Below are positions 3,785-32,124 of a stretch of DNA of 64,000 nt, piece after piece (the first letter of the stretch is position 1; the number at the start of each line of letters is the position of its first letter). The notes below the pieces were generated by a model, which was given only the letters and a program-made list of their open reading frames with translations, ran no database searches and had not been told where the DNA came from. The translations under genes and the position numbers were made by a program. This DNA is from Sphingomonas hengshuiensis (GTDB taxonomy: Bacteria > Pseudomonadota > Alphaproteobacteria > Sphingomonadales > Sphingomonadaceae): the NCBI RefSeq assembly GCF_000935025.1, contig NZ_CP010836.1:2170001-2234000 (forward strand), read 5' to 3'.

Positions 3785-3917
3785 CGTTTATGGGCTCTTG
3801 CTGCCCTATCCGATTGTCGCTCCCTGCAAGGGAGGGGTCGGGGGTGGGTGCCGGCGCCGAAGGCGGCGGCCTGACCGCGGCGGCAGGAGGCTCGCTTTGC
3901 TCGCCACCCACCCCCAG

Positions 3918-3981
3918 CCCCTCCCTTGCAGGGAGGGGAGCGAGATGGGGCCCCTCCCTTGCAGGGAGGGGAGCGAGATGG
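3918..3981. repeat. 33-base tandem duplication
   Basis: CCCCTCCCTTGCAGGGAGGG plus the following GAGCGAGATGG is present twice, starting at 3918 and 3951. The period of 33 bases equals 11 codons, so the broken desulfurase frame shows the peptide HLAPLPAREG twice. Confidence 0.85.
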
Positions 3982-12400: not shown

Positions 12401-12544
12401 GGGCTCGGGAACCTGCTGGTCCGCAGCGGAGGCCGCCGGGTCGGCGGGCGCGGTCTGCGCCTGGACCAGCGACGGAAGCATCAGGCACGAGAGCGCTGCG
12501 GCACCAAGAAGCCCGCGGCGAATTCTTACCGAACGAGAAATCAT
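9440..12544 (-). CDS. TonB-dependent receptor (carbohydrate-type)
   Basis: A 1034-residue outer-membrane transporter. A signal peptide ends near LPSLVQAQ. The plug domain starts with EIVVSGYRASLESQTNAKK (TonB-box region), then DTIFAEDIGKFPDTNIAESV and RIPGVTISRE, and the barrel ends in the usual terminal Phe (VLVGIRGRF). The form is that of the large Caulobacter/Xanthomonas receptor class that imports oligosaccharides using TonB-ExbBD energy. A terminator follows it, and a LacI-type operator-like palindrome and two short direct repeats lie within about 110 bases upstream. The neighbouring glycosidases suggest the substrate is a plant glycan fragment or glycoside; its identity is not visible here. 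Confidence 0.93.
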   Translation of the reverse strand: MISRSVRIRRGLLGAAALSCLMLPSLVQAQTAPADPAASAADQQVPEPDAEIVVSGYRASLESQTNAKKNSIGFTDTIFAEDIGKFPDTNIAESVNRIPGVTISREVTGEGANVAIRGLGTNFTRVLLNGAPVAVASVRFDAQSTNREVDLDLLPTELFTQLTVSKSPVASQVEGGAAGTVNLRSARPFDNPKPYVSYGLQGSKVSSADKWGYRGHVLASATFGDFGILVGGAAVRNHFRVDGYETIGWTNPNLSATQRTSGTLNGTGGGNFTIPGTVPANAGNGLVAGTVIDQAFLLARNPGATIDQIDNGLLPRLSRPRTEIGERTRYNGLVSLEYRPSDALHFYVDGMYAKRDTDFTRAAMNWVGRNGAVIPLNTTYDRSDCSAGCVVTKGTYANAQFFLEYRPYKDRQDYWGVNPGLDFVVNDWITGDIQGNYTKSTFRRESPTFLVITPPNSGATVTYVNNGGIPQITTNIDLNNPANFGWAGGGRVNLNGEERTTETKGVRGSLLFGDSTRFSVRVGAAYDDTMRRITPYDNTAPWQNAICGNGPNVSLPAPNTGTTPCTGLNQPGTATPAGFPAFLGYGTNYTAGGVPISYAGSLIPTAAVPSYLKPGSNGFITVDWDKVRSATGYDALLAASGETGTGSSGANGGLVQEKVTGTFVEGNGAIDVGENTLRLNGGLRYVRTEQIIGGRISVPDPRNATIADGGRYPNTINFSKTNTLYSNFLPSVSAAFDFHGIAVARGSFSKTMTRPDPNAMLPGASFVAPSADVGNVGNSALDPYISTNIDVGFEFYTGGEGVIAFAAFRKSITGFTVNGLRTVPFSFFNQYGITVDSLTQAQRDALATRAAAGQSLNDVPVVVQQQVNSDGKLKVNGLEFQVTQPLDFLTSFAGVRGFGFQGNLTLIDQKGDGAGAPAVAIGVAPTTYTLTGYYEGNGLSTRLTYTFNEGSQGSGANQNGITQAAIFGRDYAQLDFSGNLDLGKIFNNKYLPTLVVNVINITKEAQSSYFQYENATFNEYNPGRTVLVGIRGRF

Positions 12545-15596: not shown

Positions 15597-15687
15597 GACA
15601 ATTCCCTCCCCATGATGATTATGTCCGCAAATCTTCGTTTGCGTTGGCAGGGAGTTCGCACGAGGCAAAAACGAAAGCAAGCGAAAA

Positions 15688-15712: not shown

Positions 15713-18700
15713 TCAGCGAATCTCGACGGGTCCTATCAGGCCAGCGGGGCGCAGCGGCGAGGTTGCGTCATAGGGTGCGATCGGGGCGAAGGTCTGGGGT
15801 GCGGCGCCGGGCTGGCGGTCGCCGATCAGGCGGTTCTGCCAATAATTGCCGACGAGGATTTCGACGCGATTCCGCCCTTTTTGCAGGGATCCGGCCAGCG
15901 AGAGCCGTGCCGGGTGCCACCACACTACGCCCAGATCGCGGCCGTTGACGATCACGCGCGCCATGTCGCCCAGCACGCCGAGATCGATCTCGGCGCTGGC
16001 CGGATCGAAGCCGTCCGGAAGATCGAAGCTGCGCACATAGCGTGCACGCCCCGAATAATAGCGGATCGCCGGGTCGGCATCCTGCGCCCAGGAATGAAGC
16101 GATTCGAAAGTGGTTTGCGCAGGTGCGCCCATCCCGTCGAGGAAATGGACCTGCCACGGACCGCCGAGCGCAAGCTGCGCGCGCGCGGGCAGCGGATGGG
16201 CGACCGCCGCGCCCTGGCTTCGCACGACGACGAAACGCGAGCCATAGCCGGGGAGCGCGACGCGCAGCCGCGCGCCCTCCGCGCTCCGCACCGATGCGAG
16301 CGGCGCCCGGCTGCCATCCTCGGCATTCCAGACTTCGGCGACGGTGCCGCCCCCCTCGGCCCGCAGCGTCACTTCGCCGTCGAACGGCGTCGCTGCGGGA
16401 TTGGACAGGAAATAGACATCGCCGTCCGCCAGCCGCCGATGCGTCCAGTCGAGCCGGGCGCCCGCGACATCGGGGCGCACCCCTGCCCGCGCCAGCGCGG
16501 CGCCGGGAGTCGCGTCATTCCGGATAGGCCCTGCCCGCCCCCATAATGCCGCGCGCAGCCGGGCGAATTCGCGGGCGTCATCGCCTAGCCCGACCGGCGC
16601 GACCGGCGGCGCTCCCGACAGCATTGCCCCCTGCGCCGCGAGCCGATCGAGCGCACGGAGCGTCGCTACGCTCATCCGTCGCACCCCCGGCGCAATCGCC
16701 AGCACGCGATAGCGCGCGCCGCCCGGCGTGACGATCGCGCCGCGATCGACGGTCAGCCGCGCGAGCGTCTCGGCGTCGAGGAAATCATAGTCATAGCCCT
16801 CGGGCCGGGGATAGCCGTGCGGCGGGCCGACCGGGGCCTCCTCGCCGTAGAACACCGCGAGATCGGCGGCGGGGCTGCCCTGCTGGAGCAGGAACGACGC
16901 GCGCGAGAGATAGGAGACCCAGCCATCGGCGAGATCGGCCCAAGCCTCGTTGCGGGTGAAATGCTGGCCATATTGGCGCAGCGTCATCCCCGGGCGGCGC
17001 CCGTCGGTGAAGGGCTGGTGCGCCGAGGTGTGCATCACGATGCGATTGACGCCCTCGGCAAAGAAGCGGTCGACCGGGCGGCGCCATTCGCGCGGGCCGG
17101 TGCCCCAGGGCTCGTCGCCCATCGTGGTCAGCGCCTCGGCGGCGACCAGCGGCTTGCCGTGGAGATGCGCCGCCGACGCGGCCTCGCGGATATCGGCGAT
17201 ATGCTCGGGCTTGGGCGCGCCGCCTTCGGGCCAGTACCAATATTCGCCCATCGGCACGTCGGCGCGCGCCTTGGCCTGGATGCCGTCGGCGACGGTGGGC
17301 AGATCGGTGCCCGGCGCCTCGGCATAATAGGTCAGCCCGCGCGCGCGGAGCACCTGGGCGAAGACGCCGTAGTGGTTGTCGGCGATCAGATCGGCGATGG
17401 TGCGGCGCCAGTCGGCGAGGAAGCGTTCGGACTGCGCACTGTCGCCGACGACGCGGCCCGCGATCGCGGGGAGCCAGGGCAGCGGGTCATAGCCGCGCAG
17501 CCGCCGGAAGGCGGCGAACAGGCCCGGGCTCCAGCTCTGCTGCCCCGCCTCCCAGCTATCGGTGATCGCGACGTCCATCCGCCCGTTCGGGCCGACCGCA
17601 TCGACATACCGATCGTAGAAGCGCGTGGCATAGCCGCGGACGGCGTCGGCATCGAGCTTGTCGACTTCGAGCCCGACGCTCTCCGCCGAGGCGGGGACCG
17701 AGCGCCTGCCGGTGAGCGACCAGCCGAACCGCAGCACCGCCCAGCGCCCGGCGGGGGGGCGCCAGTCGAGCGTGCCGTCGGGGGCGAGCTTGCTGGTGAG
17801 ATCCAGCACCGCGCCCGCCGGGGTGGCGCGCGCGGTGCCGGTGCGGACGGCGGTATAGTCGAGCAGCGTGCCGAACCCGGCCTGCTCCTCGACGCGGTCG
17901 AGCCGCGGGCCGACCGCGAACCGCGCCTCGCGTATGTTCAGCGGCGCGGTGAGCCCCTCGAACGCGACGCGCCATTCGCGCGAGGCGTGGCCGGGGAGCG
18001 CGAAGCTGCGCACGGGTGCGGCCTTTTGCGCGGTGCCGGGGAGCGTCGCGCGGATGCGGCCCGTAGCGTCGCGCACCGTGCCCGCGGGGATCGCGCCATC
18101 GACGGCGAGCGTGAACGCCCCCGGCGCGACGGCGCGATCGAAGCGGAACACCAGCTCGGCGCGCCCGCCGACCGGCGCGAGCGTCGTCGCCGCATCGTAG
18201 CGGCCATCGCCGAGCAGCGCGGAATCGCGCGCGCCGGAGATCGTGACGCGCGGCGCCGTCGCCTCGGCGGGGCTCAGTCGGTAGGCGAGCACCGCGACGT
18301 CGTCGCCCAGCTCGGGCTGGCGGAAGCGATCGGCGATCGCGAGGTCCTGATAGGGGCCGCTGACGCGGGGCGGCGGCGGGAGGACGATGCGCCCCTTGCC
18401 CGGCCCGACGATCGTCTCCGACCAGACGAGCTTCTTCATTGCCTGCGCGGCGGTCACGCCGGGATCGCCGCTGACGCTCCACCCGCCGCTCGACTGCGCG
18501 CCGAAGCTCAGGTCGAGCCGCTTGGCCGCCTCGGCGGCGACGCGGACGGCGTGGCGCCATTCGGGGGTGCCGAAGCCGATGCGCTTCTCGACATATTGCG
18601 GGATCGGGGGTGAGCCGAAGGCGATGTCGAACAGGAACACCCCGCCCATCCCCGAACGCCGCATCCATTCGAGGTCGAGCCGGATGCCCTCCTCGCTGAC

Positions 18701-18844
18701 ATTGCCGTTGATCCATTGCCAATACGCGAGCGGGCGGGCGTCGGGCGGCGGCGCGCGGAAGCCCTCCGCGAGCGGATCGGCCTGTTGCGCGGCGACGGGG
18801 GCGGCGCCCGCGAGCAGCAGCGCGACGAGGGCGAGCCGCTTCAT
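15713..18844 (-). CDS. Glycoside hydrolase family 106 protein (alpha-L-rhamnosidase-like)
   Basis: A 1043-residue secreted enzyme. The ATG at 18844 overlaps the GH31 stop (ATGA) and starts a signal peptide (MKRLALVALLLAGAAPVAAQ). The N-terminal block ARPLAYWQWINGNVSEEGI, then DLEWMRRSGMGGVFLFD and TPEWRHAV, is diagnostic for GH106. The C-terminal part has the galactose-binding-like module with DLGVLGDMARVIVNGRDLGVVWW found in this family. Characterised members remove alpha-L-rhamnose from plant glycans, including rhamnogalacturonan II, or from glycosides. It is the last gene of a minus-strand run that begins with transketolase genes. The substrate here is unproven. Confidence 0.85.
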   Translation of the reverse strand: MKRLALVALLLAGAAPVAAQQADPLAEGFRAPPPDARPLAYWQWINGNVSEEGIRLDLEWMRRSGMGGVFLFDIAFGSPPIPQYVEKRIGFGTPEWRHAVRVAAEAAKRLDLSFGAQSSGGWSVSGDPGVTAAQAMKKLVWSETIVGPGKGRIVLPPPPRVSGPYQDLAIADRFRQPELGDDVAVLAYRLSPAEATAPRVTISGARDSALLGDGRYDAATTLAPVGGRAELVFRFDRAVAPGAFTLAVDGAIPAGTVRDATGRIRATLPGTAQKAAPVRSFALPGHASREWRVAFEGLTAPLNIREARFAVGPRLDRVEEQAGFGTLLDYTAVRTGTARATPAGAVLDLTSKLAPDGTLDWRPPAGRWAVLRFGWSLTGRRSVPASAESVGLEVDKLDADAVRGYATRFYDRYVDAVGPNGRMDVAITDSWEAGQQSWSPGLFAAFRRLRGYDPLPWLPAIAGRVVGDSAQSERFLADWRRTIADLIADNHYGVFAQVLRARGLTYYAEAPGTDLPTVADGIQAKARADVPMGEYWYWPEGGAPKPEHIADIREAASAAHLHGKPLVAAEALTTMGDEPWGTGPREWRRPVDRFFAEGVNRIVMHTSAHQPFTDGRRPGMTLRQYGQHFTRNEAWADLADGWVSYLSRASFLLQQGSPAADLAVFYGEEAPVGPPHGYPRPEGYDYDFLDAETLARLTVDRGAIVTPGGARYRVLAIAPGVRRMSVATLRALDRLAAQGAMLSGAPPVAPVGLGDDAREFARLRAALWGRAGPIRNDATPGAALARAGVRPDVAGARLDWTHRRLADGDVYFLSNPAATPFDGEVTLRAEGGGTVAEVWNAEDGSRAPLASVRSAEGARLRVALPGYGSRFVVVRSQGAAVAHPLPARAQLALGGPWQVHFLDGMGAPAQTTFESLHSWAQDADPAIRYYSGRARYVRSFDLPDGFDPASAEIDLGVLGDMARVIVNGRDLGVVWWHPARLSLAGSLQKGRNRVEILVGNYWQNRLIGDRQPGAAPQTFAPIAPYDATSPLRPAGLIGPVEIR

Positions 18845-21219
18845 GATGCGCGCACCGTGATCGCGGCGCCGCGATACTCGACCGCCTGCCCCGGCGCGGC
18901 ATCGATGCCGACCCCCGTGCCGGGTGCTACGAACACTATGCGGAAGCGCCGCACGCCGGGTGCGCCCTTCCATGTGCCGACGCGCTTGCCGATCGTCAGC
19001 GTGCCGCGCGCCTCGTCCCAGCGGATCGGCACGATCGCGCGCTCGCCACGGGAATAGCCCTGCCCGTCGCCTTCATCCTCGTACAAGTCGAACGCGCCGT
19101 CCGCGCCGCGATAGACGCGCAGCTCGACCGGGCCGAACGGGTCCTGATCGGCGTGTTCGACCACCTCGCCCAGCGGCAGGATCGAACCGTCGCGGACGAA
19201 CAGCGGGATGCGCTCCAGCGGGGCATCGGCGTTGATCCAGCGTCCGCCCGGCTGGCGCGCGCCGGTCCAGAAATCGGTCCAGCCTGTCTTGGGCAGGTAC
19301 AGCGTGCGCGTCCGCGCGCCTTCCTTGGTGATCGGATTGACGAGGAGCGCGGGGCCGAACAGGAACTGGTCGGCGATGTTCCACACCTTCTCGTCGGTGC
19401 GCCAGTCCATCACCAGCGGGCGCATGATCGTGCCATGCGCGTCGGTCACCTGCCATGCGAGCGAATAGAGATAGGGCAGCAGCCGGTAGCGCAGCCGGTT
19501 GAACGCCAGCAGCGTCGGGGTGGCGTCGCCATAGCTGAACACGCTGTTCTCGTTGGTCGAGCGCTTGCCATGGGTGCGGAACAGCGGGTTGAACACGCCA
19601 TATTGCCACCAGCGCGTGTAGAGCTCGCGAAAGGCGGGGTCGCGGGTGTCGGGTCCCTTGGGCGGGGAATCGAGCACGCCGAGATAATAGCCGCCGATAT
19701 CGGTGGTCCAATAGGGCATCCCCGACAGCGCGAAGTTGAGCCCGCCCGCAATCTGTTTCTCGAAGGTCGGGAAGGCATTGGCGATATCGCCCGACCAGCT
19801 CGCCGCGCCATGCGCCTGCACCCCCGCGAACGACGAGCGCGAGAGCAGGAACACGCGCTTGTCCTGCCGCGCCTGGACCCAGCGATCATGGACATTGGCG
19901 GTGTGCGCGAAGGGGAAATAGTTCGAATAGAACGCCCCCGGCCCGATCGCGAGGCGGCGCGACTGGATCGTGCGATCGGTGCGCGCCATTGCCGACAGAT
20001 GCAGTTCGGGCTCGTCACCGTCGAGCCAGAACGCGTCCCACCCCTGCGCCAGCAGCGGCCCGGCGAGCGTGTTCCAATAGCGGTCGGCGGCTTCCGTGCT
20101 CGTCGGGTCGTAGAGCTGGGTGCCGGGGACGAGCTGTCCCGCCCCCTTCGTCTGCGCATACTGGTTCGAACTGGTCGAGAGCAGCGGCCAGATCGAGATC
20201 ATGGTGTGGACGTTGCGGTCGCCCAGCCGCTTGAGCATCGCGGGGACGTCGGGATATTCGGCGGTCTTGAATTCCTTGTCGCCCATGCGCTGCCACCAGC
20301 GCCAGTCCTGCACCACGACATCCATCGGCGCACCGCCCTCGCGGTTCATCGCGGCGGCCTGTTCGAGCTGCGCGCCGGTGGCATAATGGTCCATCGACTG
20401 GAACAGCCCATAGGCCCAGCGCGGGAACATCGGCGCCTGGCCGGTGAGCGCGCGATACTGGCCGACCAGATCGTCCATCTCCGGCCCATAGGCGAAATAA
20501 TAGTCGATGCCGTCGGTGCTCTCCGCGGTGACCTTCAGCTCGGTCGGGAAGCGATTGTCGACGCGCGAGGCGGCGGCGGTGTTCCAGAACAGGCCATAGC
20601 CTGCGGTCGAGACCATGAAGGGAATCGCGATATCGGTGTTCGACTGGGCGAGTTCGACCACCGAACCCTGATAGTTCATCAGCCCCGACTGATGCTGGCC
20701 GAGGCCATAGAGCCCCTGGCGCAGGATCGGGTGGAACAGGATTTCGACATCATAGAGCGACGGCTCGACCGCGCCGGGCCGGTAGGCGCGCGGGCCGTTG
20801 CCGACTTCGCCGAGCAGGCGAGTGCCGTCGGGCGCCATGAACACGATAGTGCCGTTCGCCTCGGAAATGGCGAGCTTCACGCCGCCGGCATCGGCCAGCA
20901 CCTGCCCCGCCGGTGCCGCGGCGGCGGCACCGCCCGGCGCCTGCGCCCCTGCCCCATCCTGTGCAGCGCTGGCGCGCTCCAGCCGCGGCTTGACCGGGGT
21001 GCAGGCGCTGCGGATCCACGGGCGCGGCAATACGGGGGGCGCCGCGCCTTCGGGGCGGGCGACGACATGGACGAGATTGGGCCCGCAAAATTCGATGCGG
21101 ACGCGCTCGGTCGGGGTGCGCAGGACCAGGCCCCCCGCCTCCTCGCCGACCTGCGCCATCGCGGCCGGTGCCGCTGCACTCAGCAGCAGGGCGGCAAGTC
21201 CCTTTGCGGTTCGACGCAT
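18841..21219 (-). CDS. Glycoside hydrolase family 31 protein (alpha-xylosidase/alpha-glucosidase type)
   Basis: A 792-residue exported enzyme. The ATG at 21219 is preferred over the GTG two codons earlier because GGGAG stands at proper distance; a signal peptide ends at AAMAQ. The catalytic domain shows PRWAYGLFQSMDHY, then VVQDWRWW and the nucleophile Asp400 in FWLDGDEPE, and the acid/base region ASWSGDIANAF. The C-terminal beta domains include YLPKTGWTDFWTG. An Ala/Pro/Gly-rich insertion at about residues 83-108 interrupts the N-terminal beta domain. WLDxxEPE is typical of alpha-xylosidase-like GH31 members, so alpha-xylosides are a reasonable target. It lies between DUF1593 (40 bases upstream) and GH106 (overlapping). 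Confidence 0.88.
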   Translation of the reverse strand: MRRTAKGLAALLLSAAAPAAMAQVGEEAGGLVLRTPTERVRIEFCGPNLVHVVARPEGAAPPVLPRPWIRSACTPVKPRLERASAAQDGAGAQAPGGAAAAAPAGQVLADAGGVKLAISEANGTIVFMAPDGTRLLGEVGNGPRAYRPGAVEPSLYDVEILFHPILRQGLYGLGQHQSGLMNYQGSVVELAQSNTDIAIPFMVSTAGYGLFWNTAAASRVDNRFPTELKVTAESTDGIDYYFAYGPEMDDLVGQYRALTGQAPMFPRWAYGLFQSMDHYATGAQLEQAAAMNREGGAPMDVVVQDWRWWQRMGDKEFKTAEYPDVPAMLKRLGDRNVHTMISIWPLLSTSSNQYAQTKGAGQLVPGTQLYDPTSTEAADRYWNTLAGPLLAQGWDAFWLDGDEPELHLSAMARTDRTIQSRRLAIGPGAFYSNYFPFAHTANVHDRWVQARQDKRVFLLSRSSFAGVQAHGAASWSGDIANAFPTFEKQIAGGLNFALSGMPYWTTDIGGYYLGVLDSPPKGPDTRDPAFRELYTRWWQYGVFNPLFRTHGKRSTNENSVFSYGDATPTLLAFNRLRYRLLPYLYSLAWQVTDAHGTIMRPLVMDWRTDEKVWNIADQFLFGPALLVNPITKEGARTRTLYLPKTGWTDFWTGARQPGGRWINADAPLERIPLFVRDGSILPLGEVVEHADQDPFGPVELRVYRGADGAFDLYEDEGDGQGYSRGERAIVPIRWDEARGTLTIGKRVGTWKGAPGVRRFRIVFVAPGTGVGIDAAPGQAVEYRGAAITVRAS

Positions 21220-21259
21220 CTTCACTCTCCCGTCGTTTCGTTGCGCGTCGGTCGCGCGG

Positions 21260-22690
21260 CTATTTCGCGCGCGGGTTCACCGTCACGATTGCGCGGCGAT
21301 AGGCGTAGAGCGCCGGCGTCCCGGCATCGCGCGCTTCGAGGATGATGTGGAAGCGCGTCGGCGCGCTCACCTCGGGCGCGACGAAGCGCGTGTGGAGCGG
21401 ATCGCCGCGCTGGACCTCGACCGCGGGGTTGCGGTTGGTCGCCTCGGACTCGCGATACTGCCACCAGTCATAGGCGACCGTGTCGCCATCGGGGTCCTTC
21501 GATCCCTCGGCAGAGAGGCGGACGGTGTCGCCCGAGGTCGCGGTCATCTCGACTGCTTCGGTGCCGGCGATGCCGTTGAGCACGAGCTGCGGGTTATGGT
21601 TCGCGCCCTTGTAGCTGGATTGCAGCGTCCATTGGATGCGCCCGGCAAAGTCATGCTGGAACGCCTCGCGCCAGCGCCAGATCGTCGCCTTGTTGGTCTG
21701 GCGGACCTTGCCGTCGATGCCGACCACCAGGTCGCTGGTGTCGGTCCACACCCCGTCCCATTCGGAAACCTTGCCATAGCGCCCGCCCCAGCTGCCATAA
21801 TCGGGATGCTCGGGGCTGCCGAGGCCGTTGGGGATCAGATAGAGGAAGCTCGGCGTGTCGCCTTCCATGATGAATTCGAAGCTGGGGTAGAGCGACCCCA
21901 GCGGCCCGCGCTGGATATTCTCGCGGATCCATTCCTTCGACACCGTGGTGAAGTCCGGCCCGTCGAAATAATACATGCGGTCGCCCGAAATCCCGCCCCA
22001 GGTCGACAGATTATAGTGGCGGTGCGCGGTGAGGCTCACGATCCAGAACAGGTCGGGGAACTGGCGCCGGACCCAGGGGCCGGCATTGTCCTGGTCGGAG
22101 ATCGAATAGACGCGCAGTTTCGCGACGAACTTCGCCACCTCTGCGGGCGTGCGCGTCTGGCGGACCTTCCACATCGCCTGCGCGAGGTCGACTGCGCCGC
22201 CCCAGACGGTGATCCACACCGGGCGCGGATCGGGCTTGTCGACTGTCCGGATGATCCAGTCGGACGCCGCGCTATCCTTGCCCTCGCCCACCCCGAGCAT
22301 CCCGAATTCGGGGCGGCCGGGCTTGACCACCGAACGCAGAGTGTCGGCGCTCGGCCAGCCCTTGGCATGGACCTTCAGATTGGGCAGCGCCTTTTCATAG
22401 CCGTCGATGCGCCGGGTGATCTGTTCGGGGTGGACCGAATCCATCAGGTGGCGCGACGTGGAGGGCACCAGCCCCTCGACATCCCATTCATTGGCATAGA
22501 GCAGGAAGCGGACCATCGATTCCATGTCGTCGGGGTCCGATCCGACATCGGTGAGCACGATGACGCGCGGCTTGGCCGGCGCGGGCGTCGCCTGTTGCGC
22601 CAGCGCGGGAAGCGCTGCGGCGCCGATCGCCGTCCCGACCGTCGCGGCGGCGGCGAGCAGCCGGGCCATGGCCCCGATTGTGATCCTCAT
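21260..22690 (-). CDS. DUF1593 family secreted protein (nucleoside-hydrolase-like)
   Basis: A 476-residue exported protein with a signal peptide ending near ALPALAQ. The N-terminal domain begins PRVIVLTDVGSDPDDMESMV, whose Asp48/Asp52/Asp54/Asp55 resemble the Ca-binding DxDxxxDD motif of nucleoside hydrolases. A C-terminal Ig-like domain has SKDPDGDTVAYDWWQYRESE and ends VTVNPRAK. The family is often annotated as cellulose-binding or sugar-binding without biochemical proof. It follows the FGGY kinase gene by 24 bases and precedes GH31. Its fold family hydrolyses pentofuranosides, and the operon appears to serve a pentose, so a periplasmic furanosidase role is a fair hypothesis. Confidence 0.8.
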   Translation of the reverse strand: MRITIGAMARLLAAAATVGTAIGAAALPALAQQATPAPAKPRVIVLTDVGSDPDDMESMVRFLLYANEWDVEGLVPSTSRHLMDSVHPEQITRRIDGYEKALPNLKVHAKGWPSADTLRSVVKPGRPEFGMLGVGEGKDSAASDWIIRTVDKPDPRPVWITVWGGAVDLAQAMWKVRQTRTPAEVAKFVAKLRVYSISDQDNAGPWVRRQFPDLFWIVSLTAHRHYNLSTWGGISGDRMYYFDGPDFTTVSKEWIRENIQRGPLGSLYPSFEFIMEGDTPSFLYLIPNGLGSPEHPDYGSWGGRYGKVSEWDGVWTDTSDLVVGIDGKVRQTNKATIWRWREAFQHDFAGRIQWTLQSSYKGANHNPQLVLNGIAGTEAVEMTATSGDTVRLSAEGSKDPDGDTVAYDWWQYRESEATNRNPAVEVQRGDPLHTRFVAPEVSAPTRFHIILEARDAGTPALYAYRRAIVTVNPRAK

Positions 22691-22714
22691 ATGCCTCTCC
22701 TCAGTCTTGCTTTT

Positions 22715-24184
22715 TTATCGTTCGTGCAGTCCCGCCGAAGCCCCAACAGCGGCGCGCCATCGCGCATGCAGCGCCGCGCGATCGGCGGGGTCGGCGCGGG
22801 GTTCGAAACGGTCCTGCTCGATCGGCGGCCAGCGCGCGGGCGCCAGCCCCGCCGCTTCCGCCGCGAGCCACGCGACGCCGCGCGCGCCCAGCTCCAGCTG
22901 ACGCGGGCGCAGCACCGGGCGACCGATCGCATCGGCCAGCATCTGCATCAACAGATCATTGCCCGCCGCGCCGCCATCGACCGACAGCGACGCCAGCGGG
23001 GCGCCGAGATCGGCGTCCATCGCCATCGCGACATCGCCGATCTGGAGCGCAATCCCCTCCAGCACCGCGCGCGCGACATGCGCCGGCTCGGTGCCGAGCG
23101 ACATCCCGCTCAGCAGCCCGCGCGCGTCGGACTCCCAATGCGGCGCGCCCAGCCCGGCGAGCGCGGGGACGAACACCACGCCTTCGCTCGCGGGCACCGA
23201 GGCGGCGAGCGCGGTCAGCGCCTGTTCGTCCTTGAGGTTGAGCAGCCGCGTCGCGAACGCCGCGGCATGGCCAGACACCGCGACATTGCCCTCCAGCGCA
23301 TGGACCACGGCACCGCCGCGCCCCCAGGCGATCGTGCCCGACAGCCCGTGCGCCGATGCGACGCGCCCGTCGGTGACCGCCATCAGCGACGATCCGGTAC
23401 CGCACGTCACCTTCGCCTCGCCCGGCCCGGCAAAGCCATGGCCGAGCAGCGCCGCGTGCGAATCGCCGAGCATCGCGTGGATCGGCAGCCCCTCCGGCGC
23501 GCCCGCGCCCGACGTGGTGCCGAACCGCGCATCGGACGAGCGCACCTGCGGGAGCAGCGATCGGGGAATGCCGAACAGCGCCAGCATCTCTTCGTCCCAA
23601 TCGCCGGTATCGAGCGACAGGAGCTGGGTGCGCGAGGCGTTGCTGACATCGGTCGCGTGGACCGCGCCGCCGGTCAGGTGCCAGAGCAGCCAGCTGTCGA
23701 CCGTCCCGGCGCGCAGTTCGCCCGCCTCGGCGCGGGCGCGGGCGCCGGGGACTTCGTCGAGCAGCCAGCCAAGCTTCGTGCTCGGAAACAGCGGGTCGAT
23801 GCCCAGCCCGGTGCGCGCGACGATCCGCGCCGCATGCGGGCGCAGCGCGGCGCAGCGTTCGGAGGTGCGGCGGCATTGCCAGCTGATCGCGGGCGCCAGC
23901 GGTTCGCCGGTCTCGGCATCCCAAAGCAGGATCGTCTCGCGCTGGTTGGCGATGGCGATCGCCGCGACGTCGCATCCGGGCGTCGTCGCGATCAGCTCGG
24001 CGATCGCGCCCGCGACGCTGCCCCAGATCGCCTCGCCCGATTGCTCGGCCCAGCCGGGGCGCGGGTGGCGCACGCCGAGCGGGTGCGCGGCGCGCCCGAG
24101 CACCGCGCCGCTATCCGCCGCGAACAGCAGCGCCTTGGTATTCGTCGTGCCCTGATCGACCGCGAGGATCGCCGGACGCGGCAT
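22715..24184 (-). CDS. FGGY-family carbohydrate kinase (candidate D-apulose kinase)
   Basis: A 489-residue cytosolic kinase with two actin-like domains. It begins ILAVDQGTTNTKALLF, then NQRETILLWD, PSTKLGWLLDE and GDSHAALLGH, and carries the phosphate/adenosine region TCGTGSSLMAV and the C-terminal SVDGGAAGNDLLMQ. The overall look is glycerol kinase-like, but the place between transketolase subunit genes and glycosidases argues for a ketose such as D-apulose or a pentulose. Its start overlaps the stop of the transketolase C-subunit gene by one base. Expected reaction if the apiose model holds: D-apulose + ATP to D-apulose 4-phosphate. Confidence 0.85.
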   Translation of the reverse strand: MPRPAILAVDQGTTNTKALLFAADSGAVLGRAAHPLGVRHPRPGWAEQSGEAIWGSVAGAIAELIATTPGCDVAAIAIANQRETILLWDAETGEPLAPAISWQCRRTSERCAALRPHAARIVARTGLGIDPLFPSTKLGWLLDEVPGARARAEAGELRAGTVDSWLLWHLTGGAVHATDVSNASRTQLLSLDTGDWDEEMLALFGIPRSLLPQVRSSDARFGTTSGAGAPEGLPIHAMLGDSHAALLGHGFAGPGEAKVTCGTGSSLMAVTDGRVASAHGLSGTIAWGRGGAVVHALEGNVAVSGHAAAFATRLLNLKDEQALTALAASVPASEGVVFVPALAGLGAPHWESDARGLLSGMSLGTEPAHVARAVLEGIALQIGDVAMAMDADLGAPLASLSVDGGAAGNDLLMQMLADAIGRPVLRPRQLELGARGVAWLAAEAAGLAPARWPPIEQDRFEPRADPADRAALHARWRAAVGASAGLHER

Positions 24185-25134
24185 CACGCGCGCGCGGCGA
24201 CGAGTTCGCGCGCCGCCTGCGCCATCCCTGCTGCGGTCAGCCCATAATGTTCGAGCAGCCATTCCGCCGATCCGGTGGTGACGAACCCCGGAAAGCCCAG
24301 GATGCGCACCGGCACCGGGCGCGACCCGACGACGCATTCGGCGACCGCGCCGCCCAGCCCGCCGCGAACGACATGCTCCTCCGCGGTGACGATCCCACCG
24401 GTTGCGGCGGCGGCGAGCACCGCTTCTTCGTCGAGCGGCGCGATCGAGCTCATGTTGAGCACCCGCGCCTCGATCCCCTCGGCGGCGAGCGTTTCGGCAG
24501 CCTCCAGCGCGCGGTGGACCAGCACGCCGCATGCGAGGATCGCGACATCGTCGCCTGCGCGGAGCAGCTCGGCCTTGCCCGGCTGGAACACCGCATCGGC
24601 GCTGCGCTCCAGCGCCGGGACGGGCATCCGGCTGATCCGGACGAACACCGGGCCGTCATGCGCCGCCGCCCATTTGATCGCCTCCGCGGTTTCCCACGGA
24701 TCGGCGGGGACAATCACGGTCAGCCCCTTCATCGCGCGCAGCCAGGCCAGATCCTCGATGCTGTGATGCGTCGCGCCCAGCTCGCCATAGGCGACGCCGC
24801 TGGAGATGCCGCAGAGCTTCACATTGGCGTTGCTGTACGCGACATCGGCCTTGATCTGCTCGAGCGCGCGCCCGGTCAGGAAGCAGGAGGCGCCGCTGAC
24901 AAAGGGCACCTTGCCGCCATTGGCCAGCCCTGCGCCGACGCCGACCATATTCTGTTCGGCGATGCCGACATTGATCAGCCGGGTCGGGAACTTGTCGCGG
25001 AACTTGCCGAGCTTGCTCGACCCGACCGAGTCATTGACCACCGCGACGATCCGCGAATCCGCCGCCGCGAGCGCCTCCAGCGCCTCCACATAGGCATTGC
25101 GGCAATCATGGCCGGCCGCACCCTTGTCGATCAT
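24184..25134 (-). CDS. Transketolase family, C-terminal subunit (candidate apulose-4-phosphate transketolase)
   Basis: A 316-residue protein holding the pyrimidine-binding and C-terminal domains of a transketolase split in two. Seen: INVGIAEQNMVGVGAGLA (the Glu that activates thiamine diphosphate), GELGATHHSIEDLAWLRAM, VPADPWETAEAIKWA, and a C-terminal domain with HVVRGGLGGAVAE. The ATG at 25134 overlaps the N-subunit stop (ATGA), so both subunits are made in step. Split transketolases occur in several sugar pathways; the apulose-4-phosphate enzyme (AptA/AptB) is one and is usually encoded with an FGGY kinase, as here. Confidence 0.9.
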   Translation of the reverse strand: MIDKGAAGHDCRNAYVEALEALAAADSRIVAVVNDSVGSSKLGKFRDKFPTRLINVGIAEQNMVGVGAGLANGGKVPFVSGASCFLTGRALEQIKADVAYSNANVKLCGISSGVAYGELGATHHSIEDLAWLRAMKGLTVIVPADPWETAEAIKWAAAHDGPVFVRISRMPVPALERSADAVFQPGKAELLRAGDDVAILACGVLVHRALEAAETLAAEGIEARVLNMSSIAPLDEEAVLAAAATGGIVTAEEHVVRGGLGGAVAECVVGSRPVPVRILGFPGFVTTGSAEWLLEHYGLTAAGMAQAARELVAARA

Positions 25135-25988
25135 TCCGGCTGCTCCCCGTCGAGTTCGGCCAGCGCCTGGGCGAACTGTGCGTCGGTGGGCACGCCATGG
25201 TGCCACCCCGCCTGATTTTCCATGTAGCTGACGCCGCGCCCCTTCACGGTGCGCGCGATCACGCATAGCGGCTTGCTGCGCGGGGTCGCGGGCGCAGCGA
25301 GCACGTCGAGCAGCTGCGCGGCATCATGCCCGTCGATCTCGACCACGTCCCAGCCGAAGGCGCGCCATTTGTCGGCCAGCGGCTCGAGCGAATTGGTGTC
25401 CTCGGTCGGCGCGCCCTGCTGCAAATTGTTGCGGTCGACGATCGCGGTGAGATTGCCCAGCCCGCGATGCCCGGCGAACATCGCCGCTTCCCACATGCTG
25501 CCTTCCTGCAACTCGCCGTCGCCGGTGAGCACGAAGACGCGATAGTCGGCGGCGTCGATCTGCCCCGCGACGGCAATGCCGACCGCGACCGGCAGCCCAT
25601 GGCCGAGCGGCCCGGTATTGGTCTCGACCCCCGGCAGATAGGTGCGGTTGGGATGGCCGTTGAGCCGCGACTGCGGCGCGAGATAGGTCTCCAACTCGGC
25701 CTCGGAAAAATAGCCCGCCCCGGCCAGCGCGGCATAGAGCGCGCCGGTGCAATGCCCCTTGCTCATCACGAAGCGATCGCGCGACGGATCGTTCGGAACC
25801 GCAGGATCGAATCGGAGAACCCCGAAATAGATCGCAGCGAGGATATCCGCCGCGGACAGATCGCCGCCGGGATGCCCCTGGCCGGCGCGATGGATCATCG
25901 TCAGCGCCTGTCGGCGAATCCAGTTGCCGCGCACCTGGATCGTCGCAGGCAGCGCCTCGACGCCACGCAGTTTCGTTTCGTTACCCAA
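25131..25988 (-). CDS. Transketolase family, N-terminal subunit (candidate apulose-4-phosphate transketolase)
   Basis: A 285-residue thiamine-diphosphate-binding half. Motifs: HRAGQGHPGGDLSAADIL, KGHCTGALYAAL, NTGPLGHGLPVAVGIA and the cofactor motif GDGELQEGSMWEA ending in DRNNLQ. I start it at TTG 25988, which has AGGAGG five bases upstream; a GTG five codons earlier (26003) lacks a proper ribosome site. It is the first gene of a minus-strand run (two transketolase subunits, kinase, DUF1593, GH31, GH106), divergent from the ABC transporter operon. Confidence 0.9.
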   Translation of the reverse strand: MGNETKLRGVEALPATIQVRGNWIRRQALTMIHRAGQGHPGGDLSAADILAAIYFGVLRFDPAVPNDPSRDRFVMSKGHCTGALYAALAGAGYFSEAELETYLAPQSRLNGHPNRTYLPGVETNTGPLGHGLPVAVGIAVAGQIDAADYRVFVLTGDGELQEGSMWEAAMFAGHRGLGNLTAIVDRNNLQQGAPTEDTNSLEPLADKWRAFGWDVVEIDGHDAAQLLDVLAAPATPRSKPLCVIARTVKGRGVSYMENQAGWHHGVPTDAQFAQALAELDGEQPE

Positions 25989-26044
25989 GCCATCCTCCTG
26001 CACTCCCGCCTACCGCCAGACTCGGCCCGCGGCAACGGGGTCAT

Positions 26045-26080
26045 TTGCGTTTTCTTTCGTTTCTTTAGCTTTTTCCTTTC
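26045..26080. promoter_or_regulatory. CTTTC-rich tract, possible DeoR-family operator
   Basis: In the 172-base divergent gap the sequence TTTTCTTTCGTTTCTTTAGC, followed by TTTTTCCTTTC, repeats CTTTC-like units. DeoR-family sugar regulators such as E. coli AgaR bind sites built of repeated CTTTC. A DeoR-type gene lies in the plus-strand operon, so it may control both directions from here. Base composition differs sharply from the GC-rich surround. Confidence 0.5.
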
Positions 26081-26160
26081 ATAGCGCAACGACTCTGTTT
26101 GACATCGCTGCGTCTGCCTGACTAACCAGTGGCACGCCGCGGCCATGCAGAGCCGCGCAA

Positions 26161-26838
26161 ATGGAGACGATGCGCGGGATGGCTCACCCCCCAAGGCCTA
26201 ACAGATCGGGTTATGCGCGCACAGGCGGCGCCCTGCTCGCCTGTGCGCTGCTGGGCGGGTGCACCTTGCTGCCGATCGACGAGGCGCGGATGCTGCGCGA
26301 GCGGAGCAGCGGGTCGTTCGACGCCACGCGCTATGTCGCCGAAATCTGGGACAGCCGCGCCCGCCCGGCGCTGGCCGCGCGCACCGTCGCGATCGACGCG
26401 GTGCGGACCGCCGATCTCGACCGTTTCGGCGCCGAGCAGGGCCGCCGCGCGGGCGAGGGTTCGCCCTGGACCTTCGTCGTCGAGGGCGAGGCCGTCGTCC
26501 GCGAAGCCCGGACCGACCAGCCGCGCGGTACGCTGACGATCGACACGCCCGGCGGCGGCGCGACGATCCTGACCGGGCCGGTGATCAGCGGCAGCGCGAT
26601 TCGCGACGCGCTGCCCTTTATCCGCTTCGACGGGTTCTCGGACCAGATCGCCTATGCCGAAGTCGGCGCCGAGCTGACCGAGCGCGCGCTCCGCCCGCTC
26701 CAGCCGACGCTCCGCAGCCTGCGCGTCGGCGACCGCGTGCGCTTCCGCGGCGTCGCGAGCATCGTCGCGCCGGGCGATCCGATCGCGATCACCCCCTTTG
26801 AGATCGCGCGCATCGGCGGCGGAGACGCCGCGCGATGA
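26161..26838 (+). CDS. DUF2291 family lipoprotein
   Basis: A 225-residue protein, probably a periplasm-facing lipoprotein: a hydrophobic segment runs into the lipobox LLGGC at about residues 34-38. The rest has a GTLTIDTPGGGATILTGPVISGSAIRDALPFI region typical of DUF2291. Genes of this family sit beside ribose-type sugar ABC transporters, and its stop overlaps the ATPase start (ATGA). The role is unknown; it may assist capture or delivery of the sugar. Starts at codon 4 or codon 7 of this frame are also possible. Confidence 0.75.
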   Translation: METMRGMAHPPRPNRSGYARTGGALLACALLGGCTLLPIDEARMLRERSSGSFDATRYVAEIWDSRARPALAARTVAIDAVRTADLDRFGAEQGRRAGEGSPWTFVVEGEAVVREARTDQPRGTLTIDTPGGGATILTGPVISGSAIRDALPFIRFDGFSDQIAYAEVGAELTERALRPLQPTLRSLRVGDRVRFRGVASIVAPGDPIAITPFEIARIGGGDAAR

Positions 26839-28346
26839 TTCGCATCGCCGCGCGCAGCATCGTCAAGCGCTATGGCGCAGTCCACGCGCTGCGCGATGTC
26901 GACCTCGACATCCATGGCGGCGCGGTCAACGTGCTGATCGGCGAAAATGGCGCGGGCAAATCGACGCTGATGCGGATCATCGCGGGCGTCGAGACGCCGG
27001 ACGACGGCAGTCTGCTGCTCGACGGGGCGCCGATCCGGCTGCGTTCGGTGCAGGACGCCGCGGCGCATGGCATCGGGATCGTCCACCAGGAACTGAGCCT
27101 CTGCCCCAATCTGAGCGTCGCGGAGAATATCTTCCTCGATCGCGGCATCGCCGGCGGACTGGCGCTGCATCCGCGCGCCGAGCGCGCGCGGGCCGCCGAA
27201 CTGCTCGCGCGGCTGGGCGCGGCGATCGATCCCGCGACGCCGGTCGGCGCGCTGCGCGTCGGCGAGCAGCAGATCGTCGAGATCGCCCGCGCCCTATCGC
27301 GCGACGTATCCGTGCTGATCCTCGACGAGCCGACTTCGGCGCTGAGCGCGGCGGAGACCGAGCGGCTGTTCGCGGTGATCGGCGAGCTGCGCGCGGCGGG
27401 GGTCGCGATCGTCTATATCTCGCACCGGCTGGAAGAGATTGTGCGGATCGGCGACCATGTCACCGTGCTGCGCGACGGGCGCCGCGTCGCCTATGCCGGG
27501 CGCGGCGAATTCTCGGTCGACTGGATCGTCGGGCATATGCTGGGCGATCAGGCGATGCCCCGGCGGCGCGACGCCGTCGTGGCGGGTCCCGAAGTGCTGC
27601 GCGTCGACGACCTGTCGGTGCCGCGCGCGAGCGGCGGGCTGGCGGTCGACCGAGTCGGCTTTGCCGCGCATGCAGGCGAGATCACGGCGCTGTACGGGCT
27701 GCTTGGCGCAGGGCGTTCCGAGCTGTTCGAGGCGATTTGCGGCGCGGGCGAATCGCGCGGTTCGATCCGCGTCGAGGGGGTCGAGCTGGCATCGCTGCCG
27801 CTGCGCGCCCGGCTTGCACGCGGCGTCCAATATGTCCCCGAGGATCGCAAGACCGAGGGGCTGTTCCACAATTTCGCAGTGGGGCAGAACCTGTCGGTAT
27901 CGGTGCTCGACCGGCTGCGTCGCGGGCTGTTGTCGCCCGCGCGCGAGACCGAATCGGTGATGCCGATGATGCAGCGGATGGGGGTCAAGGCGCCCTCGCC
28001 GCACGCGCCGATCGGCACGCTGTCGGGCGGCAACCAGCAAAAGGTGCTGATCGGCCGCTCGCTGCTCCCCGGCCCCCGCGTGCTGTTGCTCGACGAGCCG
28101 GGGCGCGGCGTCGATGTCGGTGCGCGCGCGGAAATCTTCGCGGCGATGCGCGACCTTGCGGCGCAGGGCATCGCGATCCTGTTTTCGACCTCCGACCTGA
28201 TCGAGGCGCTGGGCGCCGCCGATCGCATCCTGGTGATGGCGGGCGGGCGGATCACCGCCGACCTGCGCGCCGCCGAGGCGACCGAGGAGGCGCTGGTCCG
28301 CGCCGCCAACCATACCCCCTCTTCCCGCATAGCCGAGGCCGCATGA
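26835..28346 (+). CDS. Sugar ABC transporter ATP-binding protein (RbsA-like, two nucleotide-binding domains)
   Basis: A 503-residue double ATPase that powers import of a monosaccharide. Domain 1: Walker A GENGAGKST, Q-loop HQELSL, signature-like LRVGEQQIVEIARAL and Walker B VLILDEPTSAL. Domain 2: degenerate Walker A (GLLGAGRSELF), complete signature LSGGNQQKVLIGRSL, and LLLDEPGRGVDVGA. This asymmetry is normal for the ribose/xylose family. The next gene is the permease, overlapping by four bases. Confidence 0.94.
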   Translation: MIRIAARSIVKRYGAVHALRDVDLDIHGGAVNVLIGENGAGKSTLMRIIAGVETPDDGSLLLDGAPIRLRSVQDAAAHGIGIVHQELSLCPNLSVAENIFLDRGIAGGLALHPRAERARAAELLARLGAAIDPATPVGALRVGEQQIVEIARALSRDVSVLILDEPTSALSAAETERLFAVIGELRAAGVAIVYISHRLEEIVRIGDHVTVLRDGRRVAYAGRGEFSVDWIVGHMLGDQAMPRRRDAVVAGPEVLRVDDLSVPRASGGLAVDRVGFAAHAGEITALYGLLGAGRSELFEAICGAGESRGSIRVEGVELASLPLRARLARGVQYVPEDRKTEGLFHNFAVGQNLSVSVLDRLRRGLLSPARETESVMPMMQRMGVKAPSPHAPIGTLSGGNQQKVLIGRSLLPGPRVLLLDEPGRGVDVGARAEIFAAMRDLAAQGIAILFSTSDLIEALGAADRILVMAGGRITADLRAAEATEEALVRAANHTPSSRIAEAA

Positions 28347-29376
28347 CGACCACCGCCGACACCCCTGCGGCGCAGAAGCGCGGCGCGCTCGATCTGCTGA
28401 TCCGGCTGCGCGCGCTGATCGCGCTGTTCGTGGTGCTCGCTTTCTTCTCGGCGATGGCGCCGAATTTCCTGTCGGTCGCGAACACGCTGATCATGGCGAA
28501 GCACATCGCGGTCATCGCGATCCTGGGGATCGGGATGACCTTCGTCGTGCTGACCGGCGGAATCGACTTGTCGGTGGGGTCGATCGCCGGGCTGTCGGGG
28601 ATGGTCGCGGGCGCGCTGATCCTCAACGGGGTAGAGCTGACTCCGCTCGGGCTGGTCGCCTTCCCGTCGATCCCGCTGGTGATCCTGGCCGTGGTCGCGC
28701 TGGGGGCGTGCATTGGCGTGGCCAATGGCGTGCTCGTCACGCGCTTCGGCGTGGCGCCGTTCATCGCGACTCTGGGGATGCTGTATGTCGCGCGCGGCGC
28801 CGCGCTGCTGCTGTCCGACGGCGCGACCTTCCCCAATCTGATCGGCAGCGCCGATTTCGGCAACCAGGGCTTTCCCTTTCTCGGCTCGGGGCGGCTGCTC
28901 GGCATCCCGGTGCCGGTGCTGCTGCTGGCGCTGCTGGCGGTGGCGGCGAGCTTCGCGGCGGCGCGGACGGCATTCGGGCGGCGCATCTATGCGGTCGGCG
29001 GCAATGAGCGCGCGGCGTTCCTGTCGGGCATCCGCGTCGGACGCGTCAAAATCTATGCCTATGTCATTTCGGGCGCCTGCGCCGCGCTGGTCGGGCTGAT
29101 CGTCGCGTCGGACCTGGTCTCCGCGCACCCGGCATCGGGCGAGACGTTCGAGCTGAGCGCGATCGCCGCAGTCGTGCTGGGCGGCGCGTCGCTCAGCGGC
29201 GGACGCGGGACGATCGGCGGCACGCTGATCGGCGCGTGCGTGATCGGCGCGCTGGGCGACGGGATGGTGATGCTGGGGATCAGCGAGTTCTGGCAGATGG
29301 TGATCAAGGGGGCAGTGATTGTCGGTGCCGTCATGCTAGACCAGCTGCAGCTCCGCATGACGCGGGGCAGCTGGAG

Positions 29377-29380
<4 letters not shown>
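28343..29380 (+). CDS. Sugar ABC transporter permease (RbsC-like)
   Basis: A 345-residue inner-membrane protein with about ten hydrophobic segments. Family marks: GIGMTFVVLTGGIDLSVGSIAGLSG, NGVLVTRFGVAPFIATLGML, and the cytoplasmic coupling loop with FGRRIYAVGGNERAAFLSGI. Ends QLQLRMTRGSWR. The start ATG at 28343 overlaps the ATPase stop, and its own stop overlaps the DeoR start, so the genes are tightly coupled. Forms the membrane channel of the ribose-type importer. Confidence 0.94.
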
Positions 29381-31130
<1,750 letters not shown>

Positions 31131-31146
31131 TCGGAAGGAAGACGCG

Positions 31147-32124
31147 ATGGCGAGCGAACAGAAGTTCGGCGCAGGGATCTGGCATTTCGCGACCTATGTC
31201 GATCGCTATGCGACCGATGGCTATGGCCCGCCGCGCACGCTGATCGAGATGATCGACATGGCCGGCCAGGTCGGCGACCTGTCGGTGGTCGACATCAACT
31301 ATCCGTTCGCCGACCCCAAGCTCAGCCTCGACGCCGTCGATGTCGCGCTCAAGCGCAACAATCTCGAGGTCATCGGGATCACGCCGGAAATCTATACCCG
31401 CGAATTCGCCAAGGGCGCCTTCACCAATCCCGATCCGGGGGTGCGCCGCCGCGCCAACGAGCTGATCAACGACGCCGCCAATGTCGTCCGCCGCTTCGGC
31501 GCCAAATATGTGAAGCTGTGGCCGGGCCAGGATGGCTGGGACTATCCGTTCCAGGTCGATCATGGCGACCTGTGGCGCGCCAGCCTCGACGGCGTCGGCG
31601 AACTCGCGCAGCAGAACCCCGACCTGCAATTCGTGATCGAATATAAGCCGCGCGAGCCGCGCAACCATATGAGCTTCGACAGCGTCGCGCGCACCTTGCT
31701 GGGGATCGAGAAGATCGGGCTGCCCAATGTCGGCATCCTGCTCGATTTCGGCCATTCGCTGTACGGCGGCGAATCCCCCGCCGACGCGGCGCAGCTCGCG
31801 ATCGACCATGGCCGGCTGTTCGGGATGGACGTGAACGACAATCTGCGCGGATGGGACGACGACATGATCGCCGGATCGGTCCACCCGATCGAGCTGTTCG
31901 AATTCTTCTACACGCTGCGCAAGAACAAGTGGGAAGGCGTGTGGCAGCTCGACCAGTTCCCGTTCCGCGAGGATTGCGTCGGCGCGGCGCAGAGCGCGAT
32001 CGGTTTCCTCAAGCATATCGAAAAGGCACTCAACCGGCTCGATTTCGACGCGATGCGCGCCGCGCAGGCGAAGCAGGACGCCGTCACTGCACTGAATCTG
32101 GCGCGGTCGGCCCTGTTCGGCTGA
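31147..32124 (+). CDS. Sugar isomerase/epimerase, TIM-barrel (candidate D-apiose isomerase)
   Basis: A 325-residue xylose-isomerase-like TIM-barrel protein. Start ATG at 31147 follows GGAAGGAAGACGCG. Seen: [47 protein letters not shown], and candidate metal ligands Glu ([13 protein letters not shown]), Asp (LLDFGHSL), Asp (GMDVNDN) and Glu/Asp late in the barrel ([13 protein letters not shown]). It lies 16 bases after the binding-protein gene as last gene of the transporter operon. With a ketose kinase and split transketolase in the divergent operon, the simplest role is aldose to ketose conversion, D-apiose to D-apulose in the known pathway. An L-rhamnose isomerase-like role is less likely, since no aldolase gene is present. 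Confidence 0.85.

Follow-up and report, generated by a model that had tools for sequence, protein, structure and literature searches.

A probable D-apiose utilisation locus in Sphingomonas hengshuiensis joining release, uptake and catabolism, with a DUF1593/Sde182 protein as candidate apiose-releasing enzyme

Homology and conserved synteny make it highly probable that the window analysed here, a 64-kb stretch of the Sphingomonas hengshuiensis chromosome, carries a D-apiose utilisation locus in which release, uptake and catabolism of the sugar are joined. Apiose is a rare plant sugar; it occurs in the pectin components RG-II and apiogalacturonan, and many glycosides of plants contain it. The newer part of the locus is its release side, as the catabolic half by itself would add one more example to a pathway already described. 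On the release side, gene neighbourhood suggests that a protein of the DUF1593/Sde182 family may act as the apiose-releasing enzyme.

Gene layout and the catabolic and import genes

Every gene listed in the preliminary description was located in the window in the divergent arrangement given there. The genes form two tightly packed runs, 157 bp apart, and several adjacent genes in the runs of both strands overlap by 1–4 nt. The features are as follows:

9440..12544, minus strand: second TonB receptor, downstream of GH106
12753..15680, minus strand: TonB-dependent receptor of the module, adjoining GH106 (PF00593 and PF07715)
15713..18844, minus strand: GH106 alpha-L-rhamnosidase (PF17132, 740 bits)
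18841..21225, minus strand: GH31 alpha-glycosidase (PF01055)
21260..22690, minus strand: Sde182/DUF1593 protein, proposed apiofuranosidase, with a fold like that of nucleoside hydrolases and an N terminus resembling a signal peptide (PF07632 and Sde0182_C)
22715..24184, minus strand: FGGY kinase, AplK-like, putative D-apulose kinase (identity to E. coli AplK)
24184..25134, minus strand: putative apulose-4-phosphate transketolase, C-terminal subunit, AptB-like (PF02779 and PF02780)
25131..26003, minus strand: putative apulose-4-phosphate transketolase, N-terminal (ThDP-binding) subunit, AptA-like (PF00456)
26040..26085, no strand assigned: T-rich region upstream of the divergent runs, containing TTTCGTTTC and TTTCCTTTC; candidate operator for DeoR (recurrent motif)
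26161..26838, plus strand: DUF2291 lipoprotein (PF10054)
26835..28346, plus strand: ribose-type ABC ATPase (E. coli apiose cluster ATPase)
28343..29380, plus strand: ribose-type ABC permease (E. coli apiose cluster permease)
29377..30171, plus strand: DeoR-family regulator (PF00455 and PF08220)
30168..31130, plus strand: periplasmic sugar-binding protein, probably for D-apiose (5ibq, E. coli apiose cluster)
31147..32124, plus strand: TIM-barrel isomerase, ApsI-like, putative D-apiose isomerase (3ktc)

The transketolase variant of the D-apiose pathway reportedly comprises ApsI, AplK and AptA/AptB, as described by Carter et al. in 2018, a study cited in PMC13001218. The isomerase of the present locus is assigned to the ApsI type by its identity to 3ktc of Pectobacterium atrosepticum SCRI1043 (199 of 319 residues, 62%), reportedly the assayed ApsI, and no other gene of this kind was found in the genome. 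The TIM-barrel protein scored far under the curated cut-offs for xylose isomerase (67 versus 447 bits) and rhamnose isomerase (63 versus 531 bits). The two transketolase subunits, encoded by adjacent genes, are nearer to AptA and AptB of E. coli SE15 than to the transketolases of the same genome: the N-terminal subunit has 45% identity (230 bits) to AptA versus 36% (132 bits) to the full-length enzyme, and the C-terminal subunit has 42% (214 bits) to AptB versus 29% (61 bits) and 34% (110 bits) to two transketolases of the genome, L001 and L004, respectively. In PMC13001218, apsI is described from Pectobacterium as the gene of D-apiose isomerase, and E. coli strains carrying the apiose cluster are reported to grow on D-apiose.

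The kinase is as near to the glycerol kinase L102 of its own genome (45%, 358 bits) as to AplK of E. coli SE15 (44%, 370 bits); as a candidate GlpK it reached 468 bits against a curated cut-off of 590. In the kinase tree, for which two GlpKs of the genome were the sole outgroup, AplK lies on a long branch inside the kinases linked to apsI, and tree and synteny together favour the AplK type.

The importer is of the ribose type by its domain content and by its identity to the corresponding proteins of the apiose cluster in E. coli SE15, amounting to 55% (351 bits) for the permease and 44% (425 bits) for the ATPase, and the lipoprotein has 30% identity to the DUF2291 protein of that cluster. The periplasmic binding protein is probably specific for D-apiose, as it shares 187 of 288 residues (65%) with 5ibq, presumably a complex with alpha-D-apiose, and 46% identity with the E. 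coli binding protein.

These comparisons, together with conserved synteny, support assigning the isomerase, the kinase, the transketolase and the importer to the D-apiose pathway, and they uphold the preliminary description in its claim of a transketolase-type pathway. Clustering with the enzymes of another sugar, named there in advance as contrary evidence, was not seen, the kinase alone being equally near to glycerol kinases. As substrate is not fixed by sequence similarity and the kinase is so close to glycerol kinases, the catabolic genes might be descendants of apiose genes that now act on another pentose or a related sugar; this is very unlikely, since a single known cluster accounts for the matches of the isomerase, the kinase, the two transketolase subunits and the importer, these genes stay together, and the isomerase is so distant from the curated xylose and rhamnose families.

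The locus has in common with the known D-apiose system an isomerase, an FGGY kinase, a two-subunit transketolase, a DUF2291 protein and a ribose-type importer in one cluster, but its tightly packed minus-strand run also takes in glycosidases and a TonB receptor. The E. coli cluster is annotated with a sugar-binding transcriptional regulator in place of the DeoR protein, and two SDR oxidoreductases where the isomerase stands here.

A survey of the isomerase found 342 relatives, from which 80 public loci were kept. The kinase was present in 76 of these 80 apsI loci and the two transketolase subunits together in 71; 52 had a DeoR relative, and only 20 had the full ABC set. The grouping of the catabolic genes is beyond chance, and the set recurs together in several phyla; therefore, the pathway itself is already known. 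In a library of open-access papers, none was found on apulose, on DUF1593 or on 5IBQ, 3KTC or 4RY0 with apiose, and those on apiose in Sphingomonas did not deal with this pathway, as judged by titles and the opening lines of abstracts.

The glycosidase and receptor module

Related modules, composed of a TonB receptor and GH31 with DUF1593 in two and GH106 in two, adjoin the apiose operon in three genomes of the Caulobacter type (loci L022/L113, L026/L118 and L039/L114). These loci share the receptor, GH31 and the full operon with the present locus, although their gene order is rearranged; in L113, a pectate lyase and a pectinesterase adjoin DUF1593. The GH31 orthologues have 56–58% identity and occur in only these Caulobacter-type loci, 3 of the 80, and the relatives of the receptor at 12753..15680 lie beside them at 58–61% identity and more than 1000 bits, which supports GH31 and this receptor as members of a recurrent module. 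Two nearby TonB receptors had been pointed out in the preliminary description, and both are present on the minus strand; only the GH106-adjacent one has a high-identity counterpart in the related modules. The joined locus, described there as unusual, is indeed uncommon but not unique.

The enzymes of the module leave room for another substrate. The nearest solved structures of GH31 are alpha-xylosidases (7kmp, 482 bits; 2xvg, 440 bits), and GH106 matches 6q2f (621 bits) better than 5mqm (375 bits), the former being a flavonoid rhamnosidase of Novosphingobium. Of the 31 searched genomes with any GH106, only 6 have it near apsI. We know of GH140 (PF13204) as the only recognised apiose-freeing family; no GH140 apiosidase was found in the locus or in the window, and the single match in the genome, at C1:4960779, adjoins GH78 and lies 2.77 Mb from the apiose locus, where apiose release could take place. 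Accordingly, it has to be considered that only the catabolic genes serve D-apiose, freed by the distant GH140/GH78 pair, and that a different plant glycan or glycoside, such as xyloglucan pieces or flavonoid rhamnosides, is the target of GH31, GH106, DUF1593 and the TonB receptor. We regard this as rather unlikely, because GH31 and the receptor accompany the apiose operon in another bacterial order, DUF1593 accompanies it in several lineages, and in RG-II rhamnose is attached directly to apiose by a bond that a rhamnosidase cuts, according to PMC7939467.

With regard to the RG-II side chain, the locus contains GH106 as a putative enzyme for the Rha-Api bond and no recognised apiosidase. In the RG-II degradation system of Bacteroides thetaiotaomicron, BT1012 is given as a beta-apiosidase and BT1001 as an alpha-rhamnosidase in PMC7939467. 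The present locus resembles this system in having a rhamnosidase next to a putative apiose-freeing step and differs from it in that DUF1593 stands in the place of GH140 and the catabolic genes are joined to the release genes. No paper joining RG-II, GH106 and GH140 was found in the library of open-access papers.

The DUF1593 protein as candidate for apiose release

The preliminary description had read the locus as a complete unit of release, import and catabolism but assigned no function to DUF1593, the sole candidate within the locus for freeing apiose.

Membership of the protein in the Sde182/DUF1593 family is clear (PF07632, 373.5 bits with a cut-off of 26.8; Sde0182_C, 79.8 bits with a cut-off of 27), and its fold is that of the nucleoside hydrolases. 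In a Foldseek search with the structure model, 2yhg of Saccharophagus degradans came first, the other matches listed were not nucleoside hydrolases, and nucleoside hydrolases appeared in the VIA list. Unlike the gene of 2yhg, the present gene lies within an apiose operon. Close relatives are also encoded in Pectobacterium, Kosakonia and Brenneria. Identity to the nucleoside hydrolases RihA, RihC and IU-NH is about 12–16%, and a profile comparison found no significant similarity between DUF1593 and RihA or RihC; the RihC relatives retrieved were near-identical enterobacterial proteins and were left out of further comparison.

Nucleoside hydrolases hold ribofuranose via a Ca2+ ion. In DUF1593, residues D48, D54, D55 and D278 are invariant in all 42 aligned relatives. 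D48 and D278 lie 230 residues apart, which, like the form TDPELDD found in a sister subfamily, fits a candidate Ca2+ site when residues are matched by eye; in the hhalign alignment, D48 fell on the first Asp of the motif instead. With D278 taken as the third Asp, the position of the catalytic His, which precedes the last Ca2+-binding Asp in nucleoside hydrolases, appears to be occupied by Gly277, present in all 42 relatives.

We know of no substrate on record for the DUF1593 family, despite thousands of members and a solved structure. We tentatively suggest that the apsI-linked DUF1593/Sde182 proteins might be apiofuranosidases, that is, O-glycosidases of the nucleoside-hydrolase fold in which Ca2+ would hold the cis-2,3-diol of beta-D-apiofuranose, as an alternative to GH140. 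It is also conceivable, if short of probable, that DUF1593 is a non-catalytic furanose-binding module capturing apiosyl glycans, with cleavage by an unrecognised enzyme. The glycine in place of the catalytic His agrees with such a module, as does the statement in the review PMC8910321 that Sde_0182 retains Ca2+, shows no activity on nucleosides and could be a module interacting with furanoses. The review also gives Sde_0182 three further carbohydrate-binding domains, a difference from the present protein. On the other hand, the presumed active-site cluster of acidic residues shows no variation among the 42 relatives, inactivity on N-nucleosides says nothing of O-furanosides, and the apiose island of Sphingomonas lycopersici has two DUF1593 genes and no other glycosidase recognised by Pfam, leaving DUF1593 as the sole such candidate there.

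The link to apsI was also seen across genomes. Whole genomes were searched for 50 of the 80 apsI loci; 26 of them had any DUF1593, and 17 of these carried it no further than 20 kb from apsI. The rate of 17/50 is overstated, because all 11 loci with a DUF1593 match in their flanks were chosen into the 50; the unselected rate is 11 of 80 loci, within about 10 kb. When matches of 100 bits or less (2 of 53) were left out, 24 of 51 DUF1593 matches lay near apsI, with about 0.4 expected, and 27 elsewhere.

DUF1593 was found near apsI mostly where GH140-like genes are absent. For exclusion between DUF1593 and PF13204, Fisher p values were 0.0005 at 20 kb, 0.0007 at 15 kb and 0.19 at 10 kb, and 0.026 at 20 kb for the strong PF13204 class only; contig numbers were assigned by hand for 10 genomes, and the contig of the weak PF13204 match is provisional in G025, G043, G044, G046 and G049. 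In a test that took relatedness into account, only 5 independent pairs were present, which places significance out of reach, and the case for strict exclusion is weak.

If DUF1593 frees apiose, a large orphan family would gain its first function and substrate, the nucleoside-hydrolase fold would gain an O-glycosidase role, and wider gene searches for apiose use would become possible. The question can be tested directly with one purified protein.

Proposed pathway and regulation

In the proposed pathway, in which the reactions, the natural substrate and the action of DUF1593 as an apiofuranosidase are all predictions, the TonB receptor would take up an apiose-bearing plant glycan fragment or glycoside, from which GH31, GH106 and DUF1593, the last as the likely apiofuranosidase in this scheme, would strip sugars; signal-like N termini, read by eye, suggest that these enzymes are periplasmic. 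The binding protein and the ribose-type ABC transporter would then import D-apiose, the isomerase would convert it to D-apulose, and the kinase would form D-apulose 4-phosphate. Finally, the split transketolase would transfer a two-carbon unit to glyceraldehyde 3-phosphate, yielding xylulose 5-phosphate and dihydroxyacetone phosphate, the reaction that Carter et al. are said to have reported in 2018.

The DeoR protein is the probable repressor of both runs. A promoter scan of the divergent upstream region found no sigma-70-like site. The motif AAACGAAA/TTTCGTTT occurs in 26 of 71 transketolase upstream regions, and the best 8-mer of one shuffle occurred in 9 of 71.

Gene order and a probable D-apiose pathway

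The gene coordinates of the preliminary description correspond to exact open reading frames in the window, and the divergent operon pair that it proposed was recovered, with all named genes on the strands assigned to them and neighbours often overlapping by 1–4 nt. The host genome comprises 5.2 Mb in 2 contigs. The locus (15713-32124) is arranged as follows:

Minus strand (-), reading away from the divergent promoter: transketolase N subunit, transketolase C subunit, FGGY kinase, Sde182/DUF1593, GH31, GH106
Minus strand (-), run continued beyond GH106: two TonB receptors, then GH3
Plus strand (+): DUF2291, ABC ATPase, permease, DeoR, binding protein, xylose-isomerase-like TIM barrel

Elsewhere in the window, two adjacent class-V aminotransferase frames (3336-5859) overlap by ~150 nt, and an HTH_38/rve integrase-core protein, presumably an IS30-type transposase, is encoded at 45630-46631, ~13 kb from the locus.

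Between the divergent runs, at 26040-26085, T-rich direct repeats TTTCGTTTC and TTTCCTTTC were found. The words TTTCGTTT/AAACGAAA occurred in 26/71 upstream regions of transketolase genes in related loci, compared with 9/71 for the best word in one shuffle; judged from sequence, the repeated word is a candidate DeoR operator.

The binding protein is identical at 187/288 residues to the solved structure 5ibq, which we take to be an alpha-D-apiose complex. In pairwise comparison, the isomerase is identical at 199/319 residues to 3ktc, a putative sugar isomerase from Erwinia carotovora atroseptica SCRI1043 (now Pectobacterium atrosepticum). One report describes apsI, the D-apiose isomerase gene, in a Pectobacterium cluster, and growth on D-apiose of E. 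coli strains carrying a related cluster (PMC13001218). Against the members of the apiose cluster fetched from E. coli SE15 as a reference, the window proteins showed identities of 44% (kinase), 45% (AptA-like) and 42% (AptB-like), and the importer showed 55% (permease), 44% (ATPase), 46% (binding protein) and 30% (DUF2291). Both transketolase subunits are nearer to AptA/AptB than to the transketolases of their own genome. The kinase alone is ambiguous, being 45% identical to a glycerol kinase of its own genome (L102) versus 44% to E. coli AplK; AplK nests among the apsI-linked kinases in a quick tree, although its branch is long and the outgroup consisted of just two glycerol kinases. Homology of the isomerase, transketolase subunits and importer supports the D-apiose transketolase pathway inferred previously, and the locus very probably serves D-apiose.

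Spread of the operon and its joined glycosidases

Scanning genome contigs yielded 342 isomerase relatives. At the loci of the best 80, spanning Alphaproteobacteria, other Proteobacteria, Actinomycetota, Myxococcota and one Bacteroidota MAG, the kinase was found at 76, both transketolase subunits at 71 and the full ABC set at 20. The catabolic operon is therefore known and widespread, yet sparse in the window's order, where an even draw found the isomerase in 7/246 genomes, including the present one. A 63% apsI relative on a Pantoea At-9b plasmid (L109:11980-12972) has no kinase or transketolase among its annotated neighbours; two Marinomonas relatives (L056 and L059, 75–76%) lack kinase or transketolase matches in their flanks, and neither PF13204 nor DUF1593 was found in their genomes.

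In three Caulobacter-type genomes, orthologues of the second TonB receptor (58–61%, >1000 bits) and of GH31 (56–58%) directly adjoin the apiose operon. DUF1593 (45–46%) stands beside the TonB receptor in two of these loci (L113 and L118), and GH106 is near the operon in L022, from the first of these genomes, and in L114. Most of the module seen in the window is therefore found again in another bacterial order, with its genes rearranged: the joining of glycosidases to catabolism is real and partly conserved, but it is not unique.

As regards the source of apiose, a pectate lyase and a pectinesterase adjoin DUF1593 in L113, and a pectate lyase adjoins the kinase in another locus, L115. On a Croceibacterium plasmid, apsI lies immediately beside DUF1593, and genes for pectate lyase and GH28 are found further away. 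These neighbours point to pectin as a plausible source. Among solved structures, the GH106 protein scores best against 6q2f (621 bits) and lower against 5mqm (375 bits). RG-II contains Rha-alpha1,3-Api-beta1,2-GalA, cut by the alpha-rhamnosidase BT1001 and the beta-apiosidase BT1012 (PMC7939467); a GH106 beside apiose genes would fit this order of cuts.

DUF1593 and GH140-type genes near apsI

The PF13204 (GH140-type) gene is absent from the locus, and the genome's single match lies 2.77 Mb away, beside GH78. This match belongs to an unlinked second locus of the genome (L090:12669-17230; C1:4948000-4967900), in which a GH140 apiosidase is paired with a GH78 rhamnosidase and MFS transporters. 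The window's DUF1593 is the only one in the genome.

The unselected rate of DUF1593 in apsI flanks was 11/80 (best 80 of 342 isomerase relatives). The 50 apsI genomes searched further were a non-random sample including all 11 of these loci; match positions within fetched loci were confirmed as open frames. In this selected sample, DUF1593 was present in 26/50 genomes and ≤20 kb from apsI in 17, with 24/51 matches near apsI versus ~0.4 expected under an even spread; PF13204 was near apsI in 32/39 genomes (49/70 matches) and GH106 in 6/31 (6/55 matches). The linkage of DUF1593 to apsI requires at least 8 changes on the isomerase tree.

PF13204 was near apsI in 5/17 genomes with a nearby DUF1593 versus 27/33 others (Fisher p 0.0005 at 20 kb), and DUF1593 was near apsI in 8/11 genomes without any PF13204. 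This avoidance gave p 0.19 at 10 kb, and considering relatedness left only 5 independent pairs and nothing significant. A weak PF13204 class (~60–80 bits, ~545 aa; for example, L010:12226-12996), distinct from the strong GH140-type class, is also frequent near apsI. The possible function of DUF1593 is the most valuable lead.

In Sphingomonas lycopersici, the operon shares a stretch of ~30 kb around apsI with two DUF1593 genes, a TonB receptor gene and a carboxylesterase gene, with no Pfam-recognised glycosidase among the other predicted reading frames scanned; the genome has no match to PF13204 or GH106. The operon of Caulobacter sp. 602-1 is also flanked by two DUF1593 genes, but the locus has a GH3-like stretch at its edge. 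A triosephosphate isomerase gene near this operon (L117:5508-6302) fits a pathway that would yield dihydroxyacetone phosphate.
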